A DNA stretch of 64,000 nt from Bacteroidia bacterium (GTDB lineage: Bacteria > Bacteroidota > Bacteroidia > JADZBD01): NCBI GenBank assembly GCA_020054095.1, contig JAGVMA010000072.1, positions 1-64,000 on the forward strand, in the 5' to 3' direction. Made by a program: the position numbers and the translations under genes. Positions 40,101-50,903 of the stretch are shown piece by piece (the first letter of the stretch is position 1; every line of letters begins with the position of its first letter). The notes beneath the pieces were generated by a model, which had not been told where the DNA came from, did not search any database, and saw only the letters and a list, made by a program, of their open reading frames with translations.

Positions 40101-41027
40101 ATGTCAACAAAGTCAGTTTATTTTAGTTTAGTATTTATGATAGCTGCCCTGTACAGCAGAGCGCAACCATCTGAACATAAATTTACCGAGCAAGAATATG
40201 TAGAAAAATACAAGGATGATGCCGTGAAAGAAATGCTTATGCACGGTGTTCCGGCAAGCATCACACTATCGCAAGGGATGCTTGAAAGTGGAAATGGCAA
40301 TAGCGCACTTGCGGTGTATGCCAATAATCACTTCGGTATAAAGTGCCACGATTGGAAAGGACTCACATTTATACAAGATGATGACACAAAAGATGAATGT
40401 TTTAGAAAGTATGGTTCTGTTTTAGAATCGTATTCTGATCATTCGCAGTTTTTAAAATCGAGGCCGCGCTATGCTTTTTTGTTTGATTTAAAAACTACCG
40501 ATTATAAAGGATGGGCAACCGGATTAAAACAAGCGGGCTATGCCACCGATCCTAACTATGCTTACAAATTAATTGATATTATAGAAAAACACAAACTTTA
40601 CGAATTGGATAAAATGGTGAAAATGCCGATTGTAAAGCCGCAAGAAAAAAATATTGACCAGCCGATTGTAAAAAATAGCACGCACCAAATTTTATTAAAC
40701 AACCGCACCAAATACGTTATTGCAAAAGAAGGCGACACCTACTTTGCCATTGCCAAAGAATTAGACATGGGCCTGTGGCAACTTTATAAATACAACGAGA
40801 GCGGCAAAAGCGCCACCACAAAAGCCGGAGACATTGTGTACCTACAGCCTAAAAAACGCAGTGCCGATAACGCTGATACACACATTGTAAAGAAAAACGA
40901 AACACTTTACGCCATTTCACAGCAATACGGTATTAAGCTAAAACACCTGTACAAAAAAAACAAACTTAACCCCGGCTCGGAGATTAAAACGGGTGATGTA
41001 ATTTTCTTGCGGAAAAAGAAAAAATAG
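40101..41027 (+). CDS. Glucosaminidase with two LysM domains
   Basis: The 308-residue exported protein has a signal region (SVYFSLVFMIAALYSRAQ). A glucosaminidase (GH73-like) domain follows: EMLMHGVPASITLSQGMLESGNGNSALAVYANNHFGIKCH, with E of LESG as catalytic acid, then YSDHSQFLKSRPRYAFLF and GLKQAGYATDPNYAYKLIDIIE. Two C-terminal LysM repeats (KYVIAKEGDTYFAIAKELDMGLWQLYKYN; HIVKKNETLYAISQQYGIKLKHLYKKN) bind peptidoglycan. It probably trims peptidoglycan in cell separation or remodelling. It is transcribed alone after the REP-like hairpin. Confidence 0.93.
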   Translation: MSTKSVYFSLVFMIAALYSRAQPSEHKFTEQEYVEKYKDDAVKEMLMHGVPASITLSQGMLESGNGNSALAVYANNHFGIKCHDWKGLTFIQDDDTKDECFRKYGSVLESYSDHSQFLKSRPRYAFLFDLKTTDYKGWATGLKQAGYATDPNYAYKLIDIIEKHKLYELDKMVKMPIVKPQEKNIDQPIVKNSTHQILLNNRTKYVIAKEGDTYFAIAKELDMGLWQLYKYNESGKSATTKAGDIVYLQPKKRSADNADTHIVKKNETLYAISQQYGIKLKHLYKKNKLNPGSEIKTGDVIFLRKKKK

Positions 41028-41319
41028 CAGAGATATTTTAGCTGTGTGTTTTACAAAAACAAAAGAAGATGGCCTCCAATAAAACAGAACAAACACAGCT
41101 GCGGATAGTTTTATATGAGCCTAATGGCCAATTTATTTATTTTACAACCTAATCTGTCTGCTGCAGGAAGGTATAATAACTGTTATGGCAACCTTACTGC
41201 CATTAATGAGACATTACTGCCAACATAAAACATTCTGCAAAATTCAAGCATCTGCAAAGTTAAAAGACGAAAAATCACAAAGAATACAATTTTATTTGTA
41301 ATTTTGCGTTACTAAGGCA
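41028..41319. other. Intergenic region at the left edge of the copper island
   Basis: No gene is visible in these 292 bases. A -7-like box TAATTTTG (41299-41306) precedes the first island gene at 41320. The word TTACTGCCA occurs twice within about 30 bases (near 41192 and 41215). No attachment-site-like match to the right edge was found by eye. Confidence 0.4.
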
Positions 41320-41709
41320 ATGAAAACTTCAATAGCAACAATTTTACTCATACTTTACGTGATACCGACAATTGGCATCAACATAAACGTGCATTACTGT
41401 AGTCAGAAGATTTCATCTGTATCGCTCTTTGGAGAATTAGCAAACCCATGTGCTTGTGGCGGTAAAAAAATGAAAAAAGATTGCTGCAAAGAAAAGAAAC
41501 TTACATTTAAGATAGAATCAGAACAGCAAAGAGCGATGGCAATTATGCTTGATTTTTCTAAAATATTTACAAACCTTGAATCGGTGATTCCCACATATAC
41601 TTTTTCGTTTAGCCCTATTGCTACCGAAAACATTTTTTACAACGATTATCACCCACCCGACCATCTAAAGCAGCCGCTTTATATTCTACACCAAGTTTTC
41701 CAAATCTGA
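41320..41709 (+). CDS. HYC_CC_PP family small exported protein
   Basis: The 129-residue protein begins with a hydrophobic segment (ATILLILYVIPTIG). It then shows the three elements that name the family: HYC (NVHYCSQKISSVSLFG), CC (KKDCCKEKKLTFKIE) and PP (YHPPDHLKQPLYILHQVFQI). An extra CACGGKKMKKDCC cluster could bind copper. Family members are found in Bacteroidota metal-resistance loci, and this is the first gene of such a locus here. Function unproven; periplasmic metal binding is the natural guess. Confidence 0.75.
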   Translation: MKTSIATILLILYVIPTIGININVHYCSQKISSVSLFGELANPCACGGKKMKKDCCKEKKLTFKIESEQQRAMAIMLDFSKIFTNLESVIPTYTFSFSPIATENIFYNDYHPPDHLKQPLYILHQVFQI

Positions 41710-41800
41710 TTTTGGGGGGCAACTTGAAAATTTTGCCGACATTATAATAGTAGCTCCGCTATTTAAGTTTCTAATCTTTTTAAATGTAAAACCGAAAAAA

Positions 41801-42661
41801 ATGAACATTTTAAATAAAATGACGATGATGCTTTGCATTGCATCAACTTCGCTCACAATTTGTGAAGCTCAAGTAAAAAATGCTAAAACCGAGACCGTAA
41901 AAATTTATGGTAATTGTGGAATGTGTGAAACAACCATTGAAACGGCTGGTAACATTAAAAAGGTTGCTAAAGTTGATTGGGACAAAGACACCAAGATGAC
42001 GGTTATAACTTACGACAGTACAAAAACAAACCAAGATGAAATTTTAAAAAGAATTGCACTTGTAGGTTACGATAGTGATAAGTTTCTTGCTCCCGATGAT
42101 GTTTATAATAAACTACACGGATGTTGCCAATATGAAAGAGTAAATAAAACTGCTGTGGTTCAAAAAGAGGTAGCAGGAAACCTTACATCAACTCAAAATC
42201 AAGAAACAACAGCAGAACCCAAGCAAGATGTTAACCAGCTAAAAGCAATTTTTGAGAACTATTTTGCCCTTAAAGATGCTTTAGTAAAAGCTGACGGAAA
42301 TTCAGCATCTACGATTGCTAAAGATTTACTTTCAAACATCAGCTCTGTTAAAATGGACAAGCTATCAACCGAAGAGCATACAGTTTGGATGAAAGTAATG
42401 AAAGATTTGGCCTTTGATGCCGGGAATATTGAAAAAGTCAAAGATGTAGTAACCCAAAGAAATTCATTTACATCGCTTTCAAAAAACGTGTATTCACTTC
42501 TTAAAGTTTCAAAACAAGAAACAACTATCTATTACCAAAACTGTCCAATGTTTAACGATGGTAAAGGCGCAAATTGGTTAAGCAAAGAAAGCACAATTAA
42601 AAATCCATACTATGGTTCACAAATGATCTCTTGTGGTAAAACAGTTGAGACCATCAAATAA
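41801..42661 (+). CDS. Exported HMA-domain protein with DUF3347
   Basis: The 286-residue protein has a signal peptide (ILNKMTMMLCIASTSLTICEAQ). A heavy-metal-associated domain follows, with the metal site GNCGMCETTIE (C39, C42). A linker and a C-terminal DUF3347 domain complete it (LKAIFENYFALKDALVKADGNSAS; IYYQNCPMFNDGKGANWLSKE; NPYYGSQMISCGKTVETI). DUF3347 occurs in copper-efflux adaptors and copper-island proteins, and CPMFNDGKGANWLS and MISCG hold likely Cu ligands. It is probably a periplasmic Cu(I) chaperone working with the multicopper oxidases downstream. Confidence 0.85.
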   Translation: MNILNKMTMMLCIASTSLTICEAQVKNAKTETVKIYGNCGMCETTIETAGNIKKVAKVDWDKDTKMTVITYDSTKTNQDEILKRIALVGYDSDKFLAPDDVYNKLHGCCQYERVNKTAVVQKEVAGNLTSTQNQETTAEPKQDVNQLKAIFENYFALKDALVKADGNSASTIAKDLLSNISSVKMDKLSTEEHTVWMKVMKDLAFDAGNIEKVKDVVTQRNSFTSLSKNVYSLLKVSKQETTIYYQNCPMFNDGKGANWLSKESTIKNPYYGSQMISCGKTVETIK

Positions 42662-42698
42662 TTAATGGACGGTGCAATATAAACCTAAAACATACAAC

Positions 42699-44207
42699 AT
42701 GGAAAGAAAAAAATTTTTGAAAATTACAGGCAGTGCAGCTGCTCTTGCCTTTTTTGGTGGTATAACAAGTCTGCTGGAAAGTTGTAAAAGAGCTTCAATG
42801 GATATGTCTTCAGCCATTTCTGTAATAACAGGAAAGTTTGATAATATCCTGCGTTTACCTCCGATTATTAATGGAACTTCACCGATAAATTTAGTTGCCA
42901 AAAGAAATACAGCTTCTATCATAAAAGGTAAAACCTCTTATGTGTTAGGTTACGGAGATAGTATTTTGGCCCCAATAATAAAAGTGAATAATGGACAAAA
43001 TGTTTCTATTAATTTTCAAAATCAATTAGAGGAAATTACCAATATTCATTGGCATGGATTAATAATTCCGGAAAATATGGATGGTCATCCTCGATACTTA
43101 GTTCAACCAAATTCAACTTTTAATTACCAATTTTCGATTAATCAGCAAGCAGGCACAAATTGGTTTCACCCACATCCTCATCTGAAAACTGGCAGGCAAG
43201 TTTTCAGGGGTTTGGCCGGAATGTTTATTGTTAACGATTCGGAAGAAGCCGCATTAAATTTACCTTCAGGAGAATTTGAGTTGCCGGTTATTATTCAGGA
43301 TAAACGAATTTATGCAGATGGTAGCATCAATTATTCGCCCGAGGAAATGGATGTAATGAGTGGTTATTTCGGGCAATATATTTGCGTAAATGGCTCATGG
43401 TCGGCATATCATAATGTTAAAACAAAAGTTTACCGACTAAGAATATTAAATGGTTCCAATGCTCGAGTATATAATTTATCTTTCAGTAATGGAATACCTT
43501 TTAATATCATTGGTTCCGATAGTGGATTGTTAGGATCTACTCAAATAATAGGTAATGTAATCTTATCACCCGGAGAAAGAATTGATGTGCTTGTAGATTT
43601 TAGTTCATTAAGTGTGGGTGCAGAATTTTATTTGCAGAGCAACACATTTAACGGTGGTGATTCTCAAGGATCAGAATCATTTAAAATAATGAAGTTCAAT
43701 GTTACAGAACAAGTGCCTGAAACATTCTCCATTCCTTCTTCATTAGTAGCATTTGTACCTATATCTCCTTCTCTCTCCATTAAAACACGCACCTTTGATA
43801 TTTCAAATATTCACATGGCTATGCCTGAAAATGGCAACATGAATATGGGTATGAATATGGATATGTCAAAAATGCACAACATAGGTGGAAAATCGTTCGA
43901 TATGGAGCGAATAGACGAAACAGTAAGTGCAAACACCACAGAAATTTGGGAATTTGATAATGCAGCAGGTGAAGATTTACACCCCATGCACCTGCATGGC
44001 GTGCAATTTCAGGTGATATCTCGAACAGGAGGCAGAGGAGTAATACTGCCACACGAGATGGGCTGGAAAGATACTGTTTTATGCATGCCAGGTGAAAAAG
44101 TAAAGATTATTATGACTTTTCCTAATAATCTCGGAACATTTGCCTTCCATTGCCACAACCTCGAACATGAAGACAGCGGAATGATGTTAAACTTTAAAAT
44201 CGTATAA
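42699..44207 (+). CDS. Multicopper oxidase (CueO/CopA-like)
   Basis: The 502-residue three-cupredoxin enzyme probably oxidises Cu(I) in the periplasm. The trinuclear and type 1 ligands are intact: HWHG (117-120), FHPHPH (156-161), HPMHLHG (about 429) and FHCHNLEHEDSGMM (about 483, with the type 1 Cys and axial Met). A Met-rich loop (MNMGMNMDMSKMH, about residue 375) is like the cuprous-binding loop of CueO. The N-terminus is RKKFLKITGSAAALAFFGG...LLESC, a near-Tat signal (RK instead of RR) with a possible lipobox Cys. The ATG at 42699 is chosen over upstream in-frame ATG 42672 for that signal. Confidence 0.94.
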   Translation: MERKKFLKITGSAAALAFFGGITSLLESCKRASMDMSSAISVITGKFDNILRLPPIINGTSPINLVAKRNTASIIKGKTSYVLGYGDSILAPIIKVNNGQNVSINFQNQLEEITNIHWHGLIIPENMDGHPRYLVQPNSTFNYQFSINQQAGTNWFHPHPHLKTGRQVFRGLAGMFIVNDSEEAALNLPSGEFELPVIIQDKRIYADGSINYSPEEMDVMSGYFGQYICVNGSWSAYHNVKTKVYRLRILNGSNARVYNLSFSNGIPFNIIGSDSGLLGSTQIIGNVILSPGERIDVLVDFSSLSVGAEFYLQSNTFNGGDSQGSESFKIMKFNVTEQVPETFSIPSSLVAFVPISPSLSIKTRTFDISNIHMAMPENGNMNMGMNMDMSKMHNIGGKSFDMERIDETVSANTTEIWEFDNAAGEDLHPMHLHGVQFQVISRTGGRGVILPHEMGWKDTVLCMPGEKVKIIMTFPNNLGTFAFHCHNLEHEDSGMMLNFKIV

Positions 44208-44208
44208 A

Positions 44209-44868
44209 ATGAAAAATATTTTTGTAATACTACCAATGATTGTAATAACCTTATTTTCTAAAGCACAATCAAATTTTAAAATGGGTGTGAACTATAATTT
44301 TGGAGCATCCACTTATTATGGCAATAAAATGGGCGCAATGGAAATGAATGGCTCAGAAATGCCAATATATTCTTTAAAACTAAGTAATGGAATGGGTGTG
44401 AAATTTCAATACTCTATTAATGAAAAATGGGCAATGAACGTAAACGCATCCTATCAACAAAGAGGTGCAATATTTGACAAGGGGATGTATAGCTACAACC
44501 CTCGATACAAATTTAACTACTTGGATTTGGCTTTTGGCACATCATACCAAACAAAGGAAATAATCAAAAAAAGCAGATTATGCTTTAGCATTGCAGGTAC
44601 ATATAATTTACTTTTAAATTCTCAACGTGTAAATAATTACGAATCATATAATTTGATGAATGATTCTCAAATGAGCGATTTTGGAGTTTTTGCATCAGTT
44701 GGATTAAATATACCAAGAGTAGAAATGGATGTCATTCAAATTTCGTTATTTGCTAATTCAGGATTCAAAAATGCTTTTAGCGGAGTATTATTAGATAATG
44801 GAATGGTTGGTAAAAATTTATTGTTTGGTTTACAATTAAATTATCTTTTGGGATTTAACAAAAAGTAA
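44209..44868 (+). CDS. Outer-membrane beta-barrel protein of the copper island
   Basis: The 219-residue protein has a signal peptide (MKNIFVILPMIVITLFSKAQ). It is followed by alternating amphipathic strands typical of a small barrel (FKMGVNYNFGASTYYG; GVKFQYSINEKWAMNVNASYQQRGAIF; YLDLAFGTSYQTKE) with a C-terminal LLFGLQLNYLLGF. It resembles the outer-membrane beta-barrel family (PF13568-like). Its Met-rich stretch MGAMEMNGSEM may touch copper. It starts one base after the oxidase stop and ends directly before the regulator gene, so it is cotranscribed with both. Confidence 0.75.
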   Translation: MKNIFVILPMIVITLFSKAQSNFKMGVNYNFGASTYYGNKMGAMEMNGSEMPIYSLKLSNGMGVKFQYSINEKWAMNVNASYQQRGAIFDKGMYSYNPRYKFNYLDLAFGTSYQTKEIIKKSRLCFSIAGTYNLLLNSQRVNNYESYNLMNDSQMSDFGVFASVGLNIPRVEMDVIQISLFANSGFKNAFSGVLLDNGMVGKNLLFGLQLNYLLGFNKK

Positions 44869-45429
44869 ATGACTCTGTACATCAAAAACATGGTGTGTAG
44901 TCGCTGCAAAATGGTAGTGAAATCTGAGTTGGAAAAATTCGGGCTTCAACTTCTTTCTGTTGAATTAGGTGAAGTGGAAACCAAAGAACCGATTACACCA
45001 GAACAAAAAAGAAATATTGCCGGGCATTTAAATAGTTTTGGTTTTGAACTAATTGATGGTAAAAAAAGCCGAATCATTGATAAAATCAAAACCCTGATTA
45101 TTGAATTAGTGCATAAGCAGAATGCCCAACTCGGCACCAACCTGTCTGATTATCTTTCGGTCCAATTATCGCAAGAATATTCAACACTCAGCAATTTGTT
45201 TTCAGAAGTAGAAGACACGACCATTGAAAAATACTTCATCAATCAAAAAATTGAAAAAGTGAAAGAGCTGCTACTGTATGACGAATTGACTTTAAGTGAA
45301 ATGGCTTTTCAGATGAATTACAGCAGCGTGGCGTATTTGAGTAACCAGTTCAAAAAAGTAACAGGCTTTTCGCCTTCGCACTACAAGCAGTTAAAAGACA
45401 AAAAACGTAAACAAATAGAAGACCTTTAA
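44869..45429 (+). CDS. AraC-type regulator with N-terminal metal-binding HMA-like domain
   Basis: This 186-residue protein starts directly after the previous stop. Residues 1-65 resemble an HMA ferredoxin-like fold: MTLYIKNMVCSRCKMVVKSELEKFG, with C10 and C13 as metal site, and LNSFGFELIDGKKS as the last strand. A helical linker and a C-terminal AraC helix-turn-helix follow: INQKIEKVKELLLYDELTLSEMAFQMNYSSVAYLSNQFKKVTGFSPSHYKQ, the complete family signature. A chaperone-like sensor fused to a DNA-binding domain suggests direct Cu(I) or other metal sensing. It likely controls the surrounding genes. Only one recognisable AraC domain end is seen, with no cupin sensor. Confidence 0.88.
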   Translation: MTLYIKNMVCSRCKMVVKSELEKFGLQLLSVELGEVETKEPITPEQKRNIAGHLNSFGFELIDGKKSRIIDKIKTLIIELVHKQNAQLGTNLSDYLSVQLSQEYSTLSNLFSEVEDTTIEKYFINQKIEKVKELLLYDELTLSEMAFQMNYSSVAYLSNQFKKVTGFSPSHYKQLKDKKRKQIEDL

Positions 45430-45522
45430 ATGTTACAAATCACAACCATAATTCCGCAACGCTTCTCTATAAGAACTTTCGAACTTTGTACCATAGTTAT
45501 TAACCCCAAAACATAATAAAAA

Positions 45523-46245
45523 ATGGTACACCAATATCAAGTTACAGGTATGACCTGTTCAAGTTGTGAAGCAAAAGTAAAGTCATCATTGATGATGGTA
45601 GAAAACGTGTTAAATGTTGAAGTTTCAAAAGAACAAAATTCTGCTACAATTACAATGGAAAAGCACATTTCATTGAGCAAACTGCAAAGTGCATTGGCCG
45701 AAAAATATAAGATTTCTGCCCCTCACCACAGCGAAATAAAAGAACAAACAAAAAGTTGGGCTGAAACTTATAAACCAATTTTACTGATTTTCTTTTACAT
45801 CACTTTGGTAACATTACTAACGCAAGTATTCAATCATCATTTTGATCCGATGCAATGGATGCAGCATTTTATGGCAGGTTTCTTTTTGGTGTTTTCGTTT
45901 TTCAAAATGCTCAACCTCAAAGGTTTTGCCGAAAGCTATGTAATGTATGATGTAGTCGCAAAGCGTTTACCCGCCTGGGCTTACCTTTATGCTTTTACAG
46001 AATTGGCTTTGGGCATTGCCTTTCTAATCAATTTCAACCCACTTATTACCAATAGTGTAACATTTGTAGTGATGAGCATAAGCATTATTGGGGTATTGCA
46101 ATCGGTACTAAACAAAAAGAAAATTCAATGCGCTTGCTTGGGCGCTGTTTTCAATTTACCAATGAGTACAGTTACCATTATTGAAGATGCTTTAATGATT
46201 GTAATGAGTGGAGTCATGCTCATCTACATAATGCAATATAATTAA
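45523..46245 (+). CDS. HMA domain fused to a MauE/DoxX-like membrane domain
   Basis: Residues 1-65 form an HMA domain with GMTCSSCEAKVKSSL (C12, C15). After a linker, residues 85-240 contain four hydrophobic segments (ILLIFFYITLVTLLTQVF; FMAGFFLVFSFFKMLNLKGFAESYVMYDVVAKRLPAWAYLYAFTELALGIAFL). They resemble MauE/DoxX-type proteins, and a further conserved Cys pair CACLG near residue 205 is typical of MauE-like quinone- or thiol-linked proteins. The protein could carry metal across or to the membrane, or use the cysteines in redox maturation. No transport mechanism is established for it. Confidence 0.82.
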   Translation: MVHQYQVTGMTCSSCEAKVKSSLMMVENVLNVEVSKEQNSATITMEKHISLSKLQSALAEKYKISAPHHSEIKEQTKSWAETYKPILLIFFYITLVTLLTQVFNHHFDPMQWMQHFMAGFFLVFSFFKMLNLKGFAESYVMYDVVAKRLPAWAYLYAFTELALGIAFLINFNPLITNSVTFVVMSISIIGVLQSVLNKKKIQCACLGAVFNLPMSTVTIIEDALMIVMSGVMLIYIMQYN

Positions 46246-46250
46246 TTAAA

Positions 46251-46766
46251 ATGAAAATGAAAATGAAAAATAATATATTAAATAAAAGAACTGTAATACT
46301 TACAATAACACTATTATGTGCCCTAATGAGTAATGCACAAATATTAAAAATCGAACTTAGAGCAACCGGATTAACCTGTTCGATGTGTTCCAATGCAATC
46401 TTTAAACAATTAAAATCAATTTCAGATGTTGATAGTATAGAGACTGATTTAAACACCAACACCTTCTTCGTTTTTCTGAAAAAAGACAATACATTGAACC
46501 CAAGTATTTTTAAAGAGAAAGTTGAAAAAGCAGGTTTTTTTGTTGGTTCATTTATTGTTACGGCAATACCTGTAATTCTTGATCAGAATATTTATACTTT
46601 ACTTGATGGTAAACCTGAAAAACAAAAAGAAATAAAATTTCAAGTTTTAGATAAAGGGTATGTTACAGAAAAGGAATTTAAAAAGCTATCTAAGAAATAC
46701 AAAGACCTGGCTACATATTTAACTAATAATGAAAACGATTTTCACATTAAAATTTTAAACCAATGA
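46251..46766 (+). CDS. Exported HMA-like protein
   Basis: The 171-residue product has a signal peptide (ILTITLLCALMSNAQ) and an HMA-like domain with ATGLTCSMCSNAIFKQL (C43, C46). A second, unknown part follows (FIVTAIPVILDQNIYTLLDGKPEKQKE...KGYVTEKEFKKLSKKYKDLATYL). Three in-frame ATGs lie within the first six codons, and the exact start is uncertain. It begins 5 bases after the HMA-MauE gene and its stop overlaps the next gene's ATG by 4 bases. It is a probable periplasmic copper carrier. Confidence 0.8.
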   Translation: MKMKMKNNILNKRTVILTITLLCALMSNAQILKIELRATGLTCSMCSNAIFKQLKSISDVDSIETDLNTNTFFVFLKKDNTLNPSIFKEKVEKAGFFVGSFIVTAIPVILDQNIYTLLDGKPEKQKEIKFQVLDKGYVTEKEFKKLSKKYKDLATYLTNNENDFHIKILNQ

Positions 46767-47581
46767 GATGGATAATTGTCTTTTACATTTTATTAAATTA
46801 TCAAAAAACGTACTGCCAAGAATTGTTTGTGGTTACTGACCCTGCCAGTAATGTTCCTGCAAACTCATTAGCTATTAACATTATGCAGTCTTCGTTTAAA
46901 AATCAGTTTGAAAAAATACTTAACTACCACTTTATGCCAGAAGCAACTTATGGTTTATCTAAGAACCTAATGTTTCGTGGTTCTGCGTTTATAAGTAACA
47001 GGAGCAATCGATTATATGCCGAAGGTGGCGGCCTTATGGCTAAATACCGATTTTACTCTACTGATGACTTAAACAGTCATTTCAGATTGGCAGCTTATGC
47101 AAGATACAGTTTCAACAGAGCCGATATTCATCAAGAACAGATAGAAATAGTAGGACATAATACAGGATTTGAAACCGGAATTATAGCTACAAAGTTGGTC
47201 AAAAAATTGGCAATCAGTACAACTGTTAGTTATGAAAAAGCTTTCGACAACAGACCACAATATGGTTTCCCAAATAATTTGGGCGATAATGCAACCAACT
47301 ATACGCTTTCGTTTGGCAGGTTGATGTATCCAAGAAAGTACACAAATTTTAAACAGACCAACATAAACATAATGGTGGAGTGTGTAGGGCAATCTATTAA
47401 TGAAAATGGAAAAACATTTTTTGATATTGTTCCTGCAATACAATTTATTTTCAATAGTCAATTTCGTATTGATTTAGCTTACAGGAAAGAGTTATACAGC
47501 TCGATGTTTCGCTCCGCACCAAATGGAGTTTATTTCAATTTATACTACACGTTCTTCAATTTGAAGAAAAGAAAAGAGTGA
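46763..47581 (+). CDS. Putative outer-membrane transporter-like barrel protein
   Basis: This 272-residue protein has a short signal peptide (IIVFYILLNYQKTYCQ). Beta strands of an outer-membrane barrel follow (HFMPEATYGLSKNLMFRGSAFIS; GGGLMAKYRFYSTDDLNSHFRLAAYARYSF; FRIDLAYRKELYSS), ending VYFNLYYTFFNLKK. It looks like the transporter/MetA-pathway phenol-degradation-type barrels that accompany metal-resistance operons in Bacteroidota. It overlaps the previous gene by 4 bases (ATGA), so the two are coupled. The conducted substrate is unknown. Confidence 0.72.
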   Translation: MRWIIVFYILLNYQKTYCQELFVVTDPASNVPANSLAINIMQSSFKNQFEKILNYHFMPEATYGLSKNLMFRGSAFISNRSNRLYAEGGGLMAKYRFYSTDDLNSHFRLAAYARYSFNRADIHQEQIEIVGHNTGFETGIIATKLVKKLAISTTVSYEKAFDNRPQYGFPNNLGDNATNYTLSFGRLMYPRKYTNFKQTNINIMVECVGQSINENGKTFFDIVPAIQFIFNSQFRIDLAYRKELYSSMFRSAPNGVYFNLYYTFFNLKKRKE

Positions 47582-47666
47582 AGAAAAATAAAGAATACAT
47601 TCCTGCACCAGGCTCCTATTATTTTACAGCCTGCTAAAATTTTGCAATTATAATTAAATAACTAAA

Positions 47667-49949
47667 ATGAAAATCATAAAATGGCTATTCCAAAAAACTC
47701 TTTGTAAAAAAGTGTTGCCAGTAGTAATCTTGCTGTTTGCAACTCAAATTATTTATGCTCAAAAAACAGTTCGCTACGATTTGTATGTAAAAGATACTAT
47801 CGTAAATTTTGCAGGAAAAGAAAAACGCGCCATTGCCGTAAACGGACAAATACCCATGCCTACGCTCACTTTTACCGAAGGCGACACAGCAGAAATTCAC
47901 GTTCACAATTTGCTCAAAGAAGAAACTTCTTTGCACTGGCACGGATTATTTCTTCCCAACAAAGAAGATGGTGTGCCTAATCTTACGCAAATGCCCATTA
48001 AGCCCAATACCACACATATCTATCGTTTTCCGATTATACAGAACGGTACACATTGGTATCACAGCCATTCGGGATTACAAGAACAAATAGGAATGTACGG
48101 AAATTTTGTAATGCTCAAAAAAACAAACGACCCTACATTTAGAAAAGGAATTGACGATTTACCAACCGTTCCTATTGTGTTAAGCGAATGGACAAACCTA
48201 AAGCCTGATAACATTCATCGAATGTTACACAATGCAAACGATTATCCAGCATTGAAAAAAAATTCCGTTCAAAGCTATGCCGAAGCCATGAAAGCAGGGC
48301 ATTTTAAAACCAAACTCAAAAACGAATGGAAAAGAATGAACGCAATGGATGTAAGCGATGTGTACTACGAAAAAATATTCATGAACGGAAAACCAAGTAC
48401 AAACCTTAAGAACATTGACGGAAAAGAATTAAAAGCTGGCGATAAAGTGCGATTACGTATTTCTAACGGTGGTGCTTCCTCTTACTTTTGGCTCACGTAT
48501 GCAGGTGGAAAAATTACCGTTGTAGCCAACGATGGCAACGATGTAGAACCTGTAGAAGTAGATAGACTGATTATTGCAGTTTCTGAAACCTATGATATAA
48601 TCGTTACCATTCCTGCCGAAAATACTGCGTATGAGTTTTTAGCAACCACCGAAGACCGAACCAATTCAGCATCAATTTATATTGGTAATGGCATCAAACA
48701 ACTGAAATCGCCACAACCACGATTAAAGTATTTTGAAGGAATGAAGATGATGAACGATATGATGAAAATGAATGGAGAATTAAATGATATGGGAATGCAA
48801 ATGAGCCTAAACCAAATGGATATGAATGTAGTAATGTATCCCGAAATTACTGGCGATGCAACTACTAAAACAAAGATGCAGGGAATGAAGATGGATAACG
48901 ACCCAAATAGATACAATGCAAATGCCTTGGCAGATATAGTAACTCTCAATTATGCCATGCTAAAATCGACTATCAATACAACACTGCCTACAAATACAAC
49001 CGTTAAGGAACTAAAATTTGAATTGACTGGAAATATGAACCGCTATGTATGGAGTATGAATAATAAAGTGGTTTCGGAAGCCGATAAAATTCTCATTAAG
49101 AAAGGCGAAAACGTACGCATCGTTTTGTACAACGGTTCTATGATGCGCCACCCAATGCACCTGCATGGACACGATTTTAGATTGCTGAATGGGCAAGGCG
49201 ATAATGCACCATTAAAAAACATAGTGGACATAATGCCAATGGAAGCCGATACTTTGGAATTTAACGCCAATGTAGAAGGCGATTGGTTTTTTCATTGTCA
49301 TATTCTTTACCATATGATGAGCGGAATGGGCAGAGTTTTTTCGTATGAAAATCAAGCACCAAATCCTTTAATTCCAAATTCTAAATTGGCACAACGCAAA
49401 CTTTTTGCAGACGACCGTAAATTTCATTTTATGGCAGAAAACGACTTTGCCACCAATGGAAACGATGGAATGGCAATGTTTCAAAACACACGCTGGAGCA
49501 TAGGCTCAGAATGGCGTTTAGGATATAACGATAGACACGGCTACGAAACCGAAACTCACATAGGAAGATACATTGGCAGAAACCAATGGCTAATGCCTTT
49601 TATTGGTTTTGATTGGCGTTATAGAAAATTAGGGCATAACGAAGTTGAAAAAAATCTATTTGGGCAAATCAACACAAAAGACAACAGAGCCCAAGTCACT
49701 TTAGGCGTAAACTACACGTTGCCAATGCTTCTGATTGCCCAAGCAGAAATTTTTCAAGATGGTAATTTTCGTTTTCAAATAATGAGAGAAGATATTCCCA
49801 TAGCTAAACGGTTGCGCGCAATGTTTATGGTGAATACTGACAAGGAATATATGTTTGGTCTCGACTATATATTTTCCAAAAATATTAGAACAAGATTTCA
49901 CTACGATAGCGACATGGGTTTGGGAATCGGACTTAGTTTGAACTATTAA
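47667..49949 (+). CDS. Multicopper oxidase fused to a CopB-like outer-membrane barrel
   Basis: The 760-residue protein joins two functions. Residues 1-31 are a signal sequence. Residues 32-570 are a CopA-type multicopper oxidase with HWHG (90-93), WYHSHSG (130-136), HPMHLHGHDF (about 495) and FHCHILYHMMSGMGRVF (about 540), so all copper ligands are intact. A Met-rich segment (about 355-420, e.g. MKMMNDMMKMNGELNDMGMQM) could hold Cu(I). Residues 590-760 resemble CopB: WSIGSEWRLGYNDRHGYETETHIGRYIGR, FIGFDWRYRK, VTLGVNYTLPMLLIAQAEIFQDGNFRFQIMRED and the end RTRFHYDSDMGLGIGLSLNY. In proteobacteria CopA and CopB are separate proteins. The fusion would tether the oxidase to the outer membrane. Confidence 0.9.
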   Translation: MKIIKWLFQKTLCKKVLPVVILLFATQIIYAQKTVRYDLYVKDTIVNFAGKEKRAIAVNGQIPMPTLTFTEGDTAEIHVHNLLKEETSLHWHGLFLPNKEDGVPNLTQMPIKPNTTHIYRFPIIQNGTHWYHSHSGLQEQIGMYGNFVMLKKTNDPTFRKGIDDLPTVPIVLSEWTNLKPDNIHRMLHNANDYPALKKNSVQSYAEAMKAGHFKTKLKNEWKRMNAMDVSDVYYEKIFMNGKPSTNLKNIDGKELKAGDKVRLRISNGGASSYFWLTYAGGKITVVANDGNDVEPVEVDRLIIAVSETYDIIVTIPAENTAYEFLATTEDRTNSASIYIGNGIKQLKSPQPRLKYFEGMKMMNDMMKMNGELNDMGMQMSLNQMDMNVVMYPEITGDATTKTKMQGMKMDNDPNRYNANALADIVTLNYAMLKSTINTTLPTNTTVKELKFELTGNMNRYVWSMNNKVVSEADKILIKKGENVRIVLYNGSMMRHPMHLHGHDFRLLNGQGDNAPLKNIVDIMPMEADTLEFNANVEGDWFFHCHILYHMMSGMGRVFSYENQAPNPLIPNSKLAQRKLFADDRKFHFMAENDFATNGNDGMAMFQNTRWSIGSEWRLGYNDRHGYETETHIGRYIGRNQWLMPFIGFDWRYRKLGHNEVEKNLFGQINTKDNRAQVTLGVNYTLPMLLIAQAEIFQDGNFRFQIMREDIPIAKRLRAMFMVNTDKEYMFGLDYIFSKNIRTRFHYDSDMGLGIGLSLNY

Positions 49950-49989
49950 AATCCAACACAATTTACAAGCACATTTAAAAGCAGCACAA

Positions 49990-50184
49990 GAAATGCACAG
50001 GCCAAGTTTTTAAAAGAGCAGTTTTTGAGGCACATAAAAATTTAGAACATAGTACCATTGCAGACGTTGAACTTGCACTTGGACTTGCCCGATACGCAAA
50101 GGATGATTTTCCAATTTTATACTTAATTGGTTTCTTATGTGAGGTTCACATTCTCTCTGAAAAAATAAGAAAAGCAAAATTGTA
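49990..50184. other. Region between copper oxidase and integrase remnant
   Basis: No complete gene is present. One plus frame after a stop (from about 49996) reads KRAVFEAHKNLEHSTIADVELALGLARYAKDDF without any start codon and may be a fragment of a lost gene. I cannot assign it to a family. Confidence 0.3.
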
Positions 50185-50903
50185 TGTATGTAGAATGGCA
50201 CGGTGTTTTAAATTATCGGTGGCCAGTATTATTTTTTTAAGTTCTTCTTCCGAAAAAACAGTGGGCAGTTTATATTCCTTTTTTTGCTCTCGGCAAATCA
50301 TATATATCTGGCGGATGTTTTAGAAGTTTTTCGTAGAAAAATTTTATTGCATTTATCATTTGGTTTTGCAAGGTGCTGCTCCATCGAGTTTTGTCTCGCT
50401 GATTCACCATAAAATCTAAAATATAAAACTTTGTTATGGTGCTCGGCTTACCATTCAGAAAGTTGTTCAGGAAAGCGATGAAGTGATTTTTGTAATTTTT
50501 TATTGTATTTGGAGAATAATTTTCAAGCCGCAGCATTTCAAGATATGCGCGTAGCGCCACTTGGTGCGATTCAATAACATCGTTTTTTAATTACTCAGGC
50601 AATATATTTGAAACAGTTAAAAGTGGCGTTTTATTTTGCTCCTCCACTTCCTCCCACTGTTTTTCAAGCAAACTGAAATTCAACTTTACCAACCCACCAA
50701 ACTTTTCTCTCAGTAATGCAAATATTTACTTGTTCAAATTAAAATGCCACTGACGCATACTATAGCTCCATTTTGCGCCAGGTATTTGTCTCACCAAATT
50801 GTTCAGTTCTTTATTATAATCAAACTGCAAAAAAAGCCGCCTCTCCTCTTTATGAAGAGCTATCGAAAAATTAAGTATAGGTTCTTTTTTTCGGCAGGCA
50901 TTA
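50185..50903 (-). pseudogene. Decayed tyrosine recombinase (integrase)
   Basis: Minus-strand translation shows RKKEPILNFSIALHKEERRL, then FDYNKELNNLVRQIPGAKWS...RQWHF (arm-type DNA-binding part of Bacteroidota integrases). A stop follows (TAA at 50726-50728), then a linker and a second in-frame stop (50591-50593). The SAM-like core-binding domain comes next (LRAYLEMLRLENYSPNTIKNYKNHFIAFLNNF...NQMINAIKFFYEKLL). At an A7 run (50279-50285) the frame shifts, after which KLPTVFSEEELKKIILATDNLKHRAIL continues the family consensus before similarity ends near 50185. The catalytic R-H-R-Y domain is absent. Two stops, a shift and truncation make it non-functional. Confidence 0.9.

Follow-up and report, generated by a model that had tools for sequence, protein, structure and literature searches.

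The window, by which we mean the whole 64,000-nucleotide stretch of DNA analysed here, encodes a 186-residue regulator, HMA-AraC, that carries an HMA-like domain at its N-terminus and an AraC-type DNA-binding domain behind it. We propose that this protein is likely a one-component, cytosolic, copper-responsive activator of AraC type that acts on the promoter at 45431-45488. The domain make-up of the regulator, the constraint on Cys10 and Cys13, the place of the operator at a promoter, and the co-occurrence of operator and family are shown here by computation; metal binding, DNA binding, and the response to copper are inferred. The clade to which the window protein belongs, referred to below as the copper clade, has members in 97 or more of the 296 Bacteroidota genomes sampled (the window's own plus 96), and HMA-AraC is probably a widespread copper sensor of this phylum, again with the copper response inferred. 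Together with a defined predicted operator and natural C10S paralogs, this distribution makes cytosolic copper sensing in Bacteroidota directly testable. If the proposal is true, the HMA-type domain joins the sensory parts known in bacterial regulators.

The regulator and its copper-gene neighbourhood

The HMA-AraC gene (44869..45429, plus strand) was defined from its open reading frame, Pfam matches, and an AlphaFold2 model (mean pLDDT 87.5, from a 43-sequence alignment). Its ATG start directly abuts the stop codon of an upstream outer-membrane beta-barrel gene. Pfam and structure comparison place an AraC-type DNA-binding domain at residues 67-178 (45067..45402, plus strand). Within it, residues 103-174 scored 50.7 bits with HTH_18, above its cut-off of 33.6, as expected for an AraC-type double helix-turn-helix, and in structure comparison the domain resembled the C-terminal domain of AraT (Z 15.1), MarA (Z 13.5), and the DNA-binding domain of E. 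coli AraC (Z 12.6).

Residues 1-63 (44869..45057, plus strand) form an HMA-like domain, identified by a profile match and by a beta-alpha-beta-beta-alpha-beta fold in the AlphaFold2 model (strands at 2-6, 28-32, 35-38, and 60-62; helices at 11-22 and 44-55). The regulator has only two cysteines, in a Cys10-x-x-Cys13 motif encoded at 44896..44907 (plus strand); in the model Cys10 sits in the beta1-alpha1 loop and Cys13 lies near the start of helix 1. The MxCxxC motif of HMA domains is met by M8, V9, C10, x, R12, and C13. We call the domain HMA-like because the Pfam HMA profile (PF00403) scored below its gathering cut-off in this protein (13.5 versus 24.8 bits). Across the family, 25 of 43 members matched the same profile at E<=1 (best 5.5e-5), and profile-profile alignment to ten small HMA proteins of related loci covered residues 8-61 with a probability of 95.8% and an E-value of 8e-9. 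Structure comparison with Foldseek and VIA-align gave Z 7.9 against GolB and against an ATP7B domain pair, 7.6 against Atx1, and 7.3 against CopZ. However, ACT domains, which have the same kind of fold, reached Z 7.7, and the structure tool warns that Z values below 8 may reflect nothing beyond a common arrangement. Since ACT domains score alike and all of these values fall just under 8, the fold alone is not decisive. What makes the domain HMA-like is its cysteine motif together with the profile evidence; the fold, known from a model only, would not be enough by itself. The first-pass annotation, made from sequence alone, had described a CxxC chaperone-like domain fused to an AraC helix-turn-helix, with cysteines at positions 10 and 13; this description held, and the cysteine positions are exactly as claimed.

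Copper genes flank the regulator on both sides, so that its claimed location amid such genes also held. Upstream on the plus strand lie genes for a HYC_CC_PP family protein, the first of the upstream set (41320..41709, profile search), a protein with DUF3347 and an HMA-like region below cut-off (41801..42661, Pfam), a multicopper oxidase that is CueO-like but below cut-off (42672..44207, profile search), and the outer-membrane beta-barrel protein (44209..44868, Pfam). The first gene past the predicted operator, on the same strand, encodes an HMA-MauE membrane protein (45523..46245, Pfam and neighbourhood profiles). It is followed by genes for an HMA-domain protein (46251..46766, Pfam), a 272-residue protein without a Pfam hit that is present in 7 other related loci (46763..47581), and a multicopper oxidase of the copper-resistance type, below the TIGR01480 cut-off (47667..49949, profile search). 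In 55 of 81 neighbourhoods there is a protein of the same cluster as the window's DUF3347 protein, and in 51 there is one that clusters with its multicopper-oxidase proteins. Flavobacterium johnsoniae is among the relatives that have this type of locus. The 81 neighbourhoods comprise the window and 80 loci found by query patterns, and the sample favours the motif of the query. The HMA-MauE gene stands where many related loci have a P1B copper ATPase; its product could be an alternative copper transporter or a supplier of reductant.

Two branches of the family and the constraint on its cysteines

Among 296 genomes drawn across Bacteroidota, 142 contain a family member at E<=1e-15, in 81 of 140 genera and with up to five copies per genome. 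Thirty plasmid records contain a match that spans 80% or more of the window protein, and the usual annotation of family members in such records is AraC or helix-turn-helix regulator. The window genome has a single member; the only other match, at E 2e-5, is weak and confined to the helix-turn-helix part. Within this large Bacteroidota family, for which we found no functional description, the window protein is unexceptional.

We classified 159 members, taken from 148 stretches around listed matches, by the residues at positions 10 and 13. The 80 pattern-found loci were left out of these counts. The counts do not include the weakest family members, and flanks were truncated at contig ends. The set comprises 129 CxxC and 28 SxxC members as well as two others (GxxC and CxxD), which were excluded from the comparison. 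A copper gene, defined as a P1B-ATPase with a CPx-type motif, an HMA protein, a DUF3347 protein, or a multicopper oxidase, lies within 5 kb of 104 of the 129 CxxC members, compared with none of the 28 SxxC members. Two SxxC members at a single locus had initially been tagged as copper-linked; the neighbouring P-type ATPase lacks a CPx motif, and they were not counted.

A tree of 163 rows shows how this contrast is distributed. The window protein falls in the copper clade, which comprises 120 rows, all CxxC, with support of 100/99. Copper genes were found within 5 kb of 104 of the other 119 rows in this clade and of none of the remaining 15. Outside it are 43 rows (30 SxxC, 11 CxxC, 2 other), and none of the 40 that could be scored has a copper gene, including the 10 scored of the 11 CxxC members. 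A referee might ask whether the comparison of CxxC with SxxC tests the cysteine independently of ancestry. The state of position 10 changes four times on the tree, giving three independent pairs on supported branches, and most pairings of these showed no difference in copper context. We therefore dropped the comparison as an independent test; the contrast is a single clade-level split, and Fisher p-values for cysteine state against copper context are inflated because of it.

The part of the cysteine evidence that stays strong is the constraint on the residues themselves. Cys10 and Cys13 are invariant in all 120 copper-clade members, as are M8, V9, and G34, whereas in columns 1-62 outside positions 5-13 the top residue averages 45%. 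In 114 of the 120, these two aligned positions hold the only cysteines. Residue 12 is variable across the family and may be R, H, or S. For five members with a CxSC motif, no scored copper gene lies that close, within 5 kb.

The SxxC members have different neighbours: hybrid histidine kinases (12/28), response regulators (12/28), a cupin-like protein whose representative is below the Pfam cut-off (12/28), and a Dps-like ferritin (5/28). This branch mostly has Ser10 and Tyr7, and YceI is also among its neighbours. SxxC paralogs sometimes occur in neighbouring copies, one of them degenerate.

A predicted operator and its distribution

Intergenic DNA downstream of the regulator gene at copper loci, cut at the next start codon, contains a shared motif. 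Its consensus is T-R-Y-A-A-M followed 21 bp on by T-R-Y-A-A-C, with CCAnAAT preceding the second half. Over 76 nonredundant gaps the motif reached a log-likelihood of 410 at width 24, compared with 72-81 in three shuffles; shuffles here and in the site tests preserve base composition only. Sites of at least 8 bits were detected in 119 of 161 post-regulator gaps, a count that is partly circular because the matrix was derived from them. The half-sites of the predicted operator of the window (45431..45460, plus strand), TACAA (45434-45438) and CGCAA (45455-45459), are spaced by 21 bp and enclose CCATAAT. When the matrix was built without the window and its close relatives (60 members in all), this operator scored 21.9 bits, the next best site on either strand of the 64 kb scored 15.2, and none of 2000 shuffles of the window gap reached the operator score. 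A direct repeat of about 21 bp near the promoter, as an AraC/XylS operator would have, is thus predicted by computation, without binding data. Operators of AraC-family proteins include direct repeats with a spacing of about 21 bp, which fits AraC-type dimers.

The position of the repeat relative to the promoter bears on the mode of regulation. In Bacteroides fragilis the -7 and -33 consensus elements are TAnnTTTG and TTTG, and they are also used in Flavobacterium (PMC2483708). In the window, a -7 element, GAACTTTG, lies at 45481..45488 (plus strand), with its TTTG 24 nt past the operator. TTTG occurs at an offset of 24 or 25 after the operator in 44 of 70 nonredundant sites, and every other offset occurs at most twice. 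Across 39 aligned sites, the base three positions ahead of the T-run of the -7 box is always A, in agreement with TAnnTTTG; these rows were selected for TTTG or TTTA and not for the invariant A. The preference for these two adjacent offsets suggests that the operator replaces the -33 element, as expected for an activator. Because the repeat is upstream of the -7 box and keeps a fixed distance to it, repression is the less likely mode.

The SxxC paralogs provide a comparison from outside the training set, since their sites were not used for the operator matrix. Of their downstream flanks, 8 of 23 have a site of at least 8 bits, as have 8 of 30 of their upstream flanks, with one gap included in both counts; the background is 8 in 127,940 window positions. 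The SxxC paralogs therefore carry the same type of operator, which argues that the two branches share DNA recognition and that Cys10 is not needed for it.

The first-pass annotation had named two candidate regions for binding. The region at 45430-45522 held, in that it contains the predicted operator, without binding data. The region at 41100-41320 was not supported: a scan of 41000-41320 for the family operator gave a best score of -0.0 bits, compared with 21.9 at 45431. A -7-like element, TAATTTTG, is present at 41299-41306 without a family operator. Upstream of the HMA-AraC gene at copper loci, only a weak motif was recovered (log-likelihood 116 versus 79-89 in shuffles, width 24), and just 9 of 183 family genes have an operator site in this position.

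To describe the regulon we used a sequence model of the operator built from 39 sites, the window site included. In the window genome, with scoring limited to 150 of 3084 first-look candidates, the only strong match (E 3.7e-7) was the window operator, which is itself in the model; the other 13 matches had E-values of 0.018 or worse. Two of these 13 were inspected and rejected as operators, both lying inside ORFs of unrelated look. The sole Cu-ATPase over cut-off in this genome is on a contig (C18) where the model gives no site. The model thus predicts a regulon consisting of the promoter at 45431-45488 alone.

Across the 296 genomes, 30 sites at E<=1e-5 were found in 27 genomes, all of them among the 142 family-positive genomes; none was found at this threshold in the 154 family-negative genomes. 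The model was trained on sites beside family genes. Half of the sites (15/30) lie outside the training set, though partly from the same genera. Comparison of the site list with the family-gene list placed 22 of the 30 at most 500 bp from a family gene on that list, five at 0.7-2.3 kb, and two at 10-14 kb; one could not be placed. The gene after the site, called as the best fit among 22 neighbourhood profiles, could be assigned in 28 cases: 18 P1B-ATPases, five HMA-MauE proteins, four small HMA proteins, and one multicopper oxidase. The remaining two sites were not matched by the simple site pattern. No site at E<=1e-5 was found in 115 of the 142 family-positive genomes, so either the operator varies more in these genomes or the family works in another way. 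Lineages may differ in their operators. Some of these 115 genomes have weaker matrix sites at their loci.

Mechanism, alternatives, and related systems

In the mechanism that we propose, all steps of which are inferred, Cu(I) would bind Cys10 and Cys13 of the HMA-like domain, and two molecules of the copper-bound regulator would occupy the 21-bp direct repeat, possibly paired via a Cu(I) ion shared between their CxxC motifs. The bound pair would then recruit RNA polymerase for expression of the HMA-MauE, HMA, 272-residue protein, and multicopper oxidase genes. A bolder reading is that the family is a major unrecognised cytosolic Cu(I) sensor of Bacteroidota, in which a metallochaperone domain has been turned into the sensor of an AraC activator, Cu(I) shared by two CxxC motifs pairs the proteins on a 21-bp direct repeat that replaces the -33 element, and a sister branch that has for the most part lost Cys10 has kept the operator type while being rewired to other genes of stress type. 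We would not wager on this extended version in either direction.

Three alternatives to a copper-responsive activator deserve consideration. The CxxC domain could sense another soft metal (Ag, Hg, Cd, Zn) or thiol/redox state, with the copper genes forming part of the response. CxxC motifs bind many soft metals and can form disulfides, and both the variability of residue 12 and the five CxSC members without copper neighbours leave room for this reading. We nevertheless consider it unlikely, as the genes that follow operators are of copper type: HMA proteins, a multicopper oxidase, and P1B-ATPases, in most of which the motif is CPC (78 of 90 P1B-like ORFs, judged by a simple pattern). A more distant possibility is that the N-terminal domain senses nothing and that the regulator acts by abundance, like MarA and SoxS, being induced along with the upstream operon. 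The abutment of the gene on the upstream copper gene set and the retention of the operator type by SxxC paralogs without Cys10 would fit such a regulator, but the invariance of both cysteines throughout the copper clade, in a domain that is mostly variable, makes it very improbable.

Finally, the repeat before the copper genes could be bound by a different regulator, with HMA-AraC an incidental neighbour. In favour of this are the lack of binding data and the seven of 30 sites that lie 0.7-2.3 kb (five) or 10-14 kb (two) from a family gene. Against it, every genome with a strong site has the family (27/27) and no family-less genome has a site (0/154); moreover, SxxC paralogs on which the matrix was not trained bear the same repeat beside their own genes, and the spacing fits AraC-type dimers. 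We regard this alternative, too, as very unlikely.

The favoured copper-responsive activator can be set beside known systems. Its HMA-like domain shares its fold and the position of the MxCxxC motif with the metallochaperones CopZ, Atx1, and GolB and with the HMA domains of copper ATPases; it differs from these in being fused to a DNA-binding domain and, in the window protein, in a sequence below the Pfam HMA cut-off. CueR, of the MerR family, and CsoR sense copper in the cytosol, as is proposed here, and control copper export genes, but they belong to other protein families. The first-pass annotation had claimed that such a fusion would allow metal sensing without a two-component system or a MerR/CsoR protein, and that its place amid copper genes is consistent with local control. 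The fusion and local control are supported by comparative evidence, with metal binding inferred. As to CsoR and CueR, the window genome has no match to CsoR (PF02583), for which a control search found matches in 6 of 14 genomes, and no CueR (TIGR02044) above cut-off (best 24.8 versus 147.4 bits).

The nearest functional precedent is YbtA, an AraC-family activator of the Yersinia high-pathogenicity island that controls siderophore genes. Its activity needs a CxxC pair (C206 and C209), and copper-yersiniabactin raises transcription through it (PMC8725597). In YbtA, by contrast with HMA-AraC, the pair lies in a cysteine-rich ligand-binding domain and the signal is copper-yersiniabactin; no HMA-type domain is mentioned in the bearing sections of that paper. 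Searches of the open-access literature, outside of which most subscription papers lie, yielded no functional description of the HMA-AraC family, and the family is not mentioned in the bearing sections of PMC10710014 and PMC12119571. A 2024 study of copper genes in the flavobacterium Bizionia argentinensis reported MerR and CopY-like proteins without known copper sites, and copA genes that, unlike those of other Gram-negative bacteria, are not arranged with a chaperone and regulator. That study proposed ArsR-type and two-component candidates; the term 'AraC' appears nowhere in its text (PMC11213822).

Some observations concern the origin of the copper region. Its GC content (41320-50000) is 33-36%, compared with 36-44% elsewhere in the window. 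The window regulator is 85% identical to a gene from a genome of another class, and 86-88% identical to genes of Thermoflexibacter, Raineya, and a Saprospiraceae MAG. The GC drop and these cross-lineage identities raise the possibility that 41320-50000 was acquired by horizontal transfer. A megablast search of the same interval against plasmids returned no match. At the edge of the copper cluster, a 96-residue ORF on the minus strand (50270-50560) resembles by eye the N-terminal part of a tyrosine recombinase, a likeness with no search behind it. Elsewhere in the family, a contig labelled Candidatus Saccharibacteria has a member close to one from a Bacteroidetes MAG, and its placement in that group may be a binning error.
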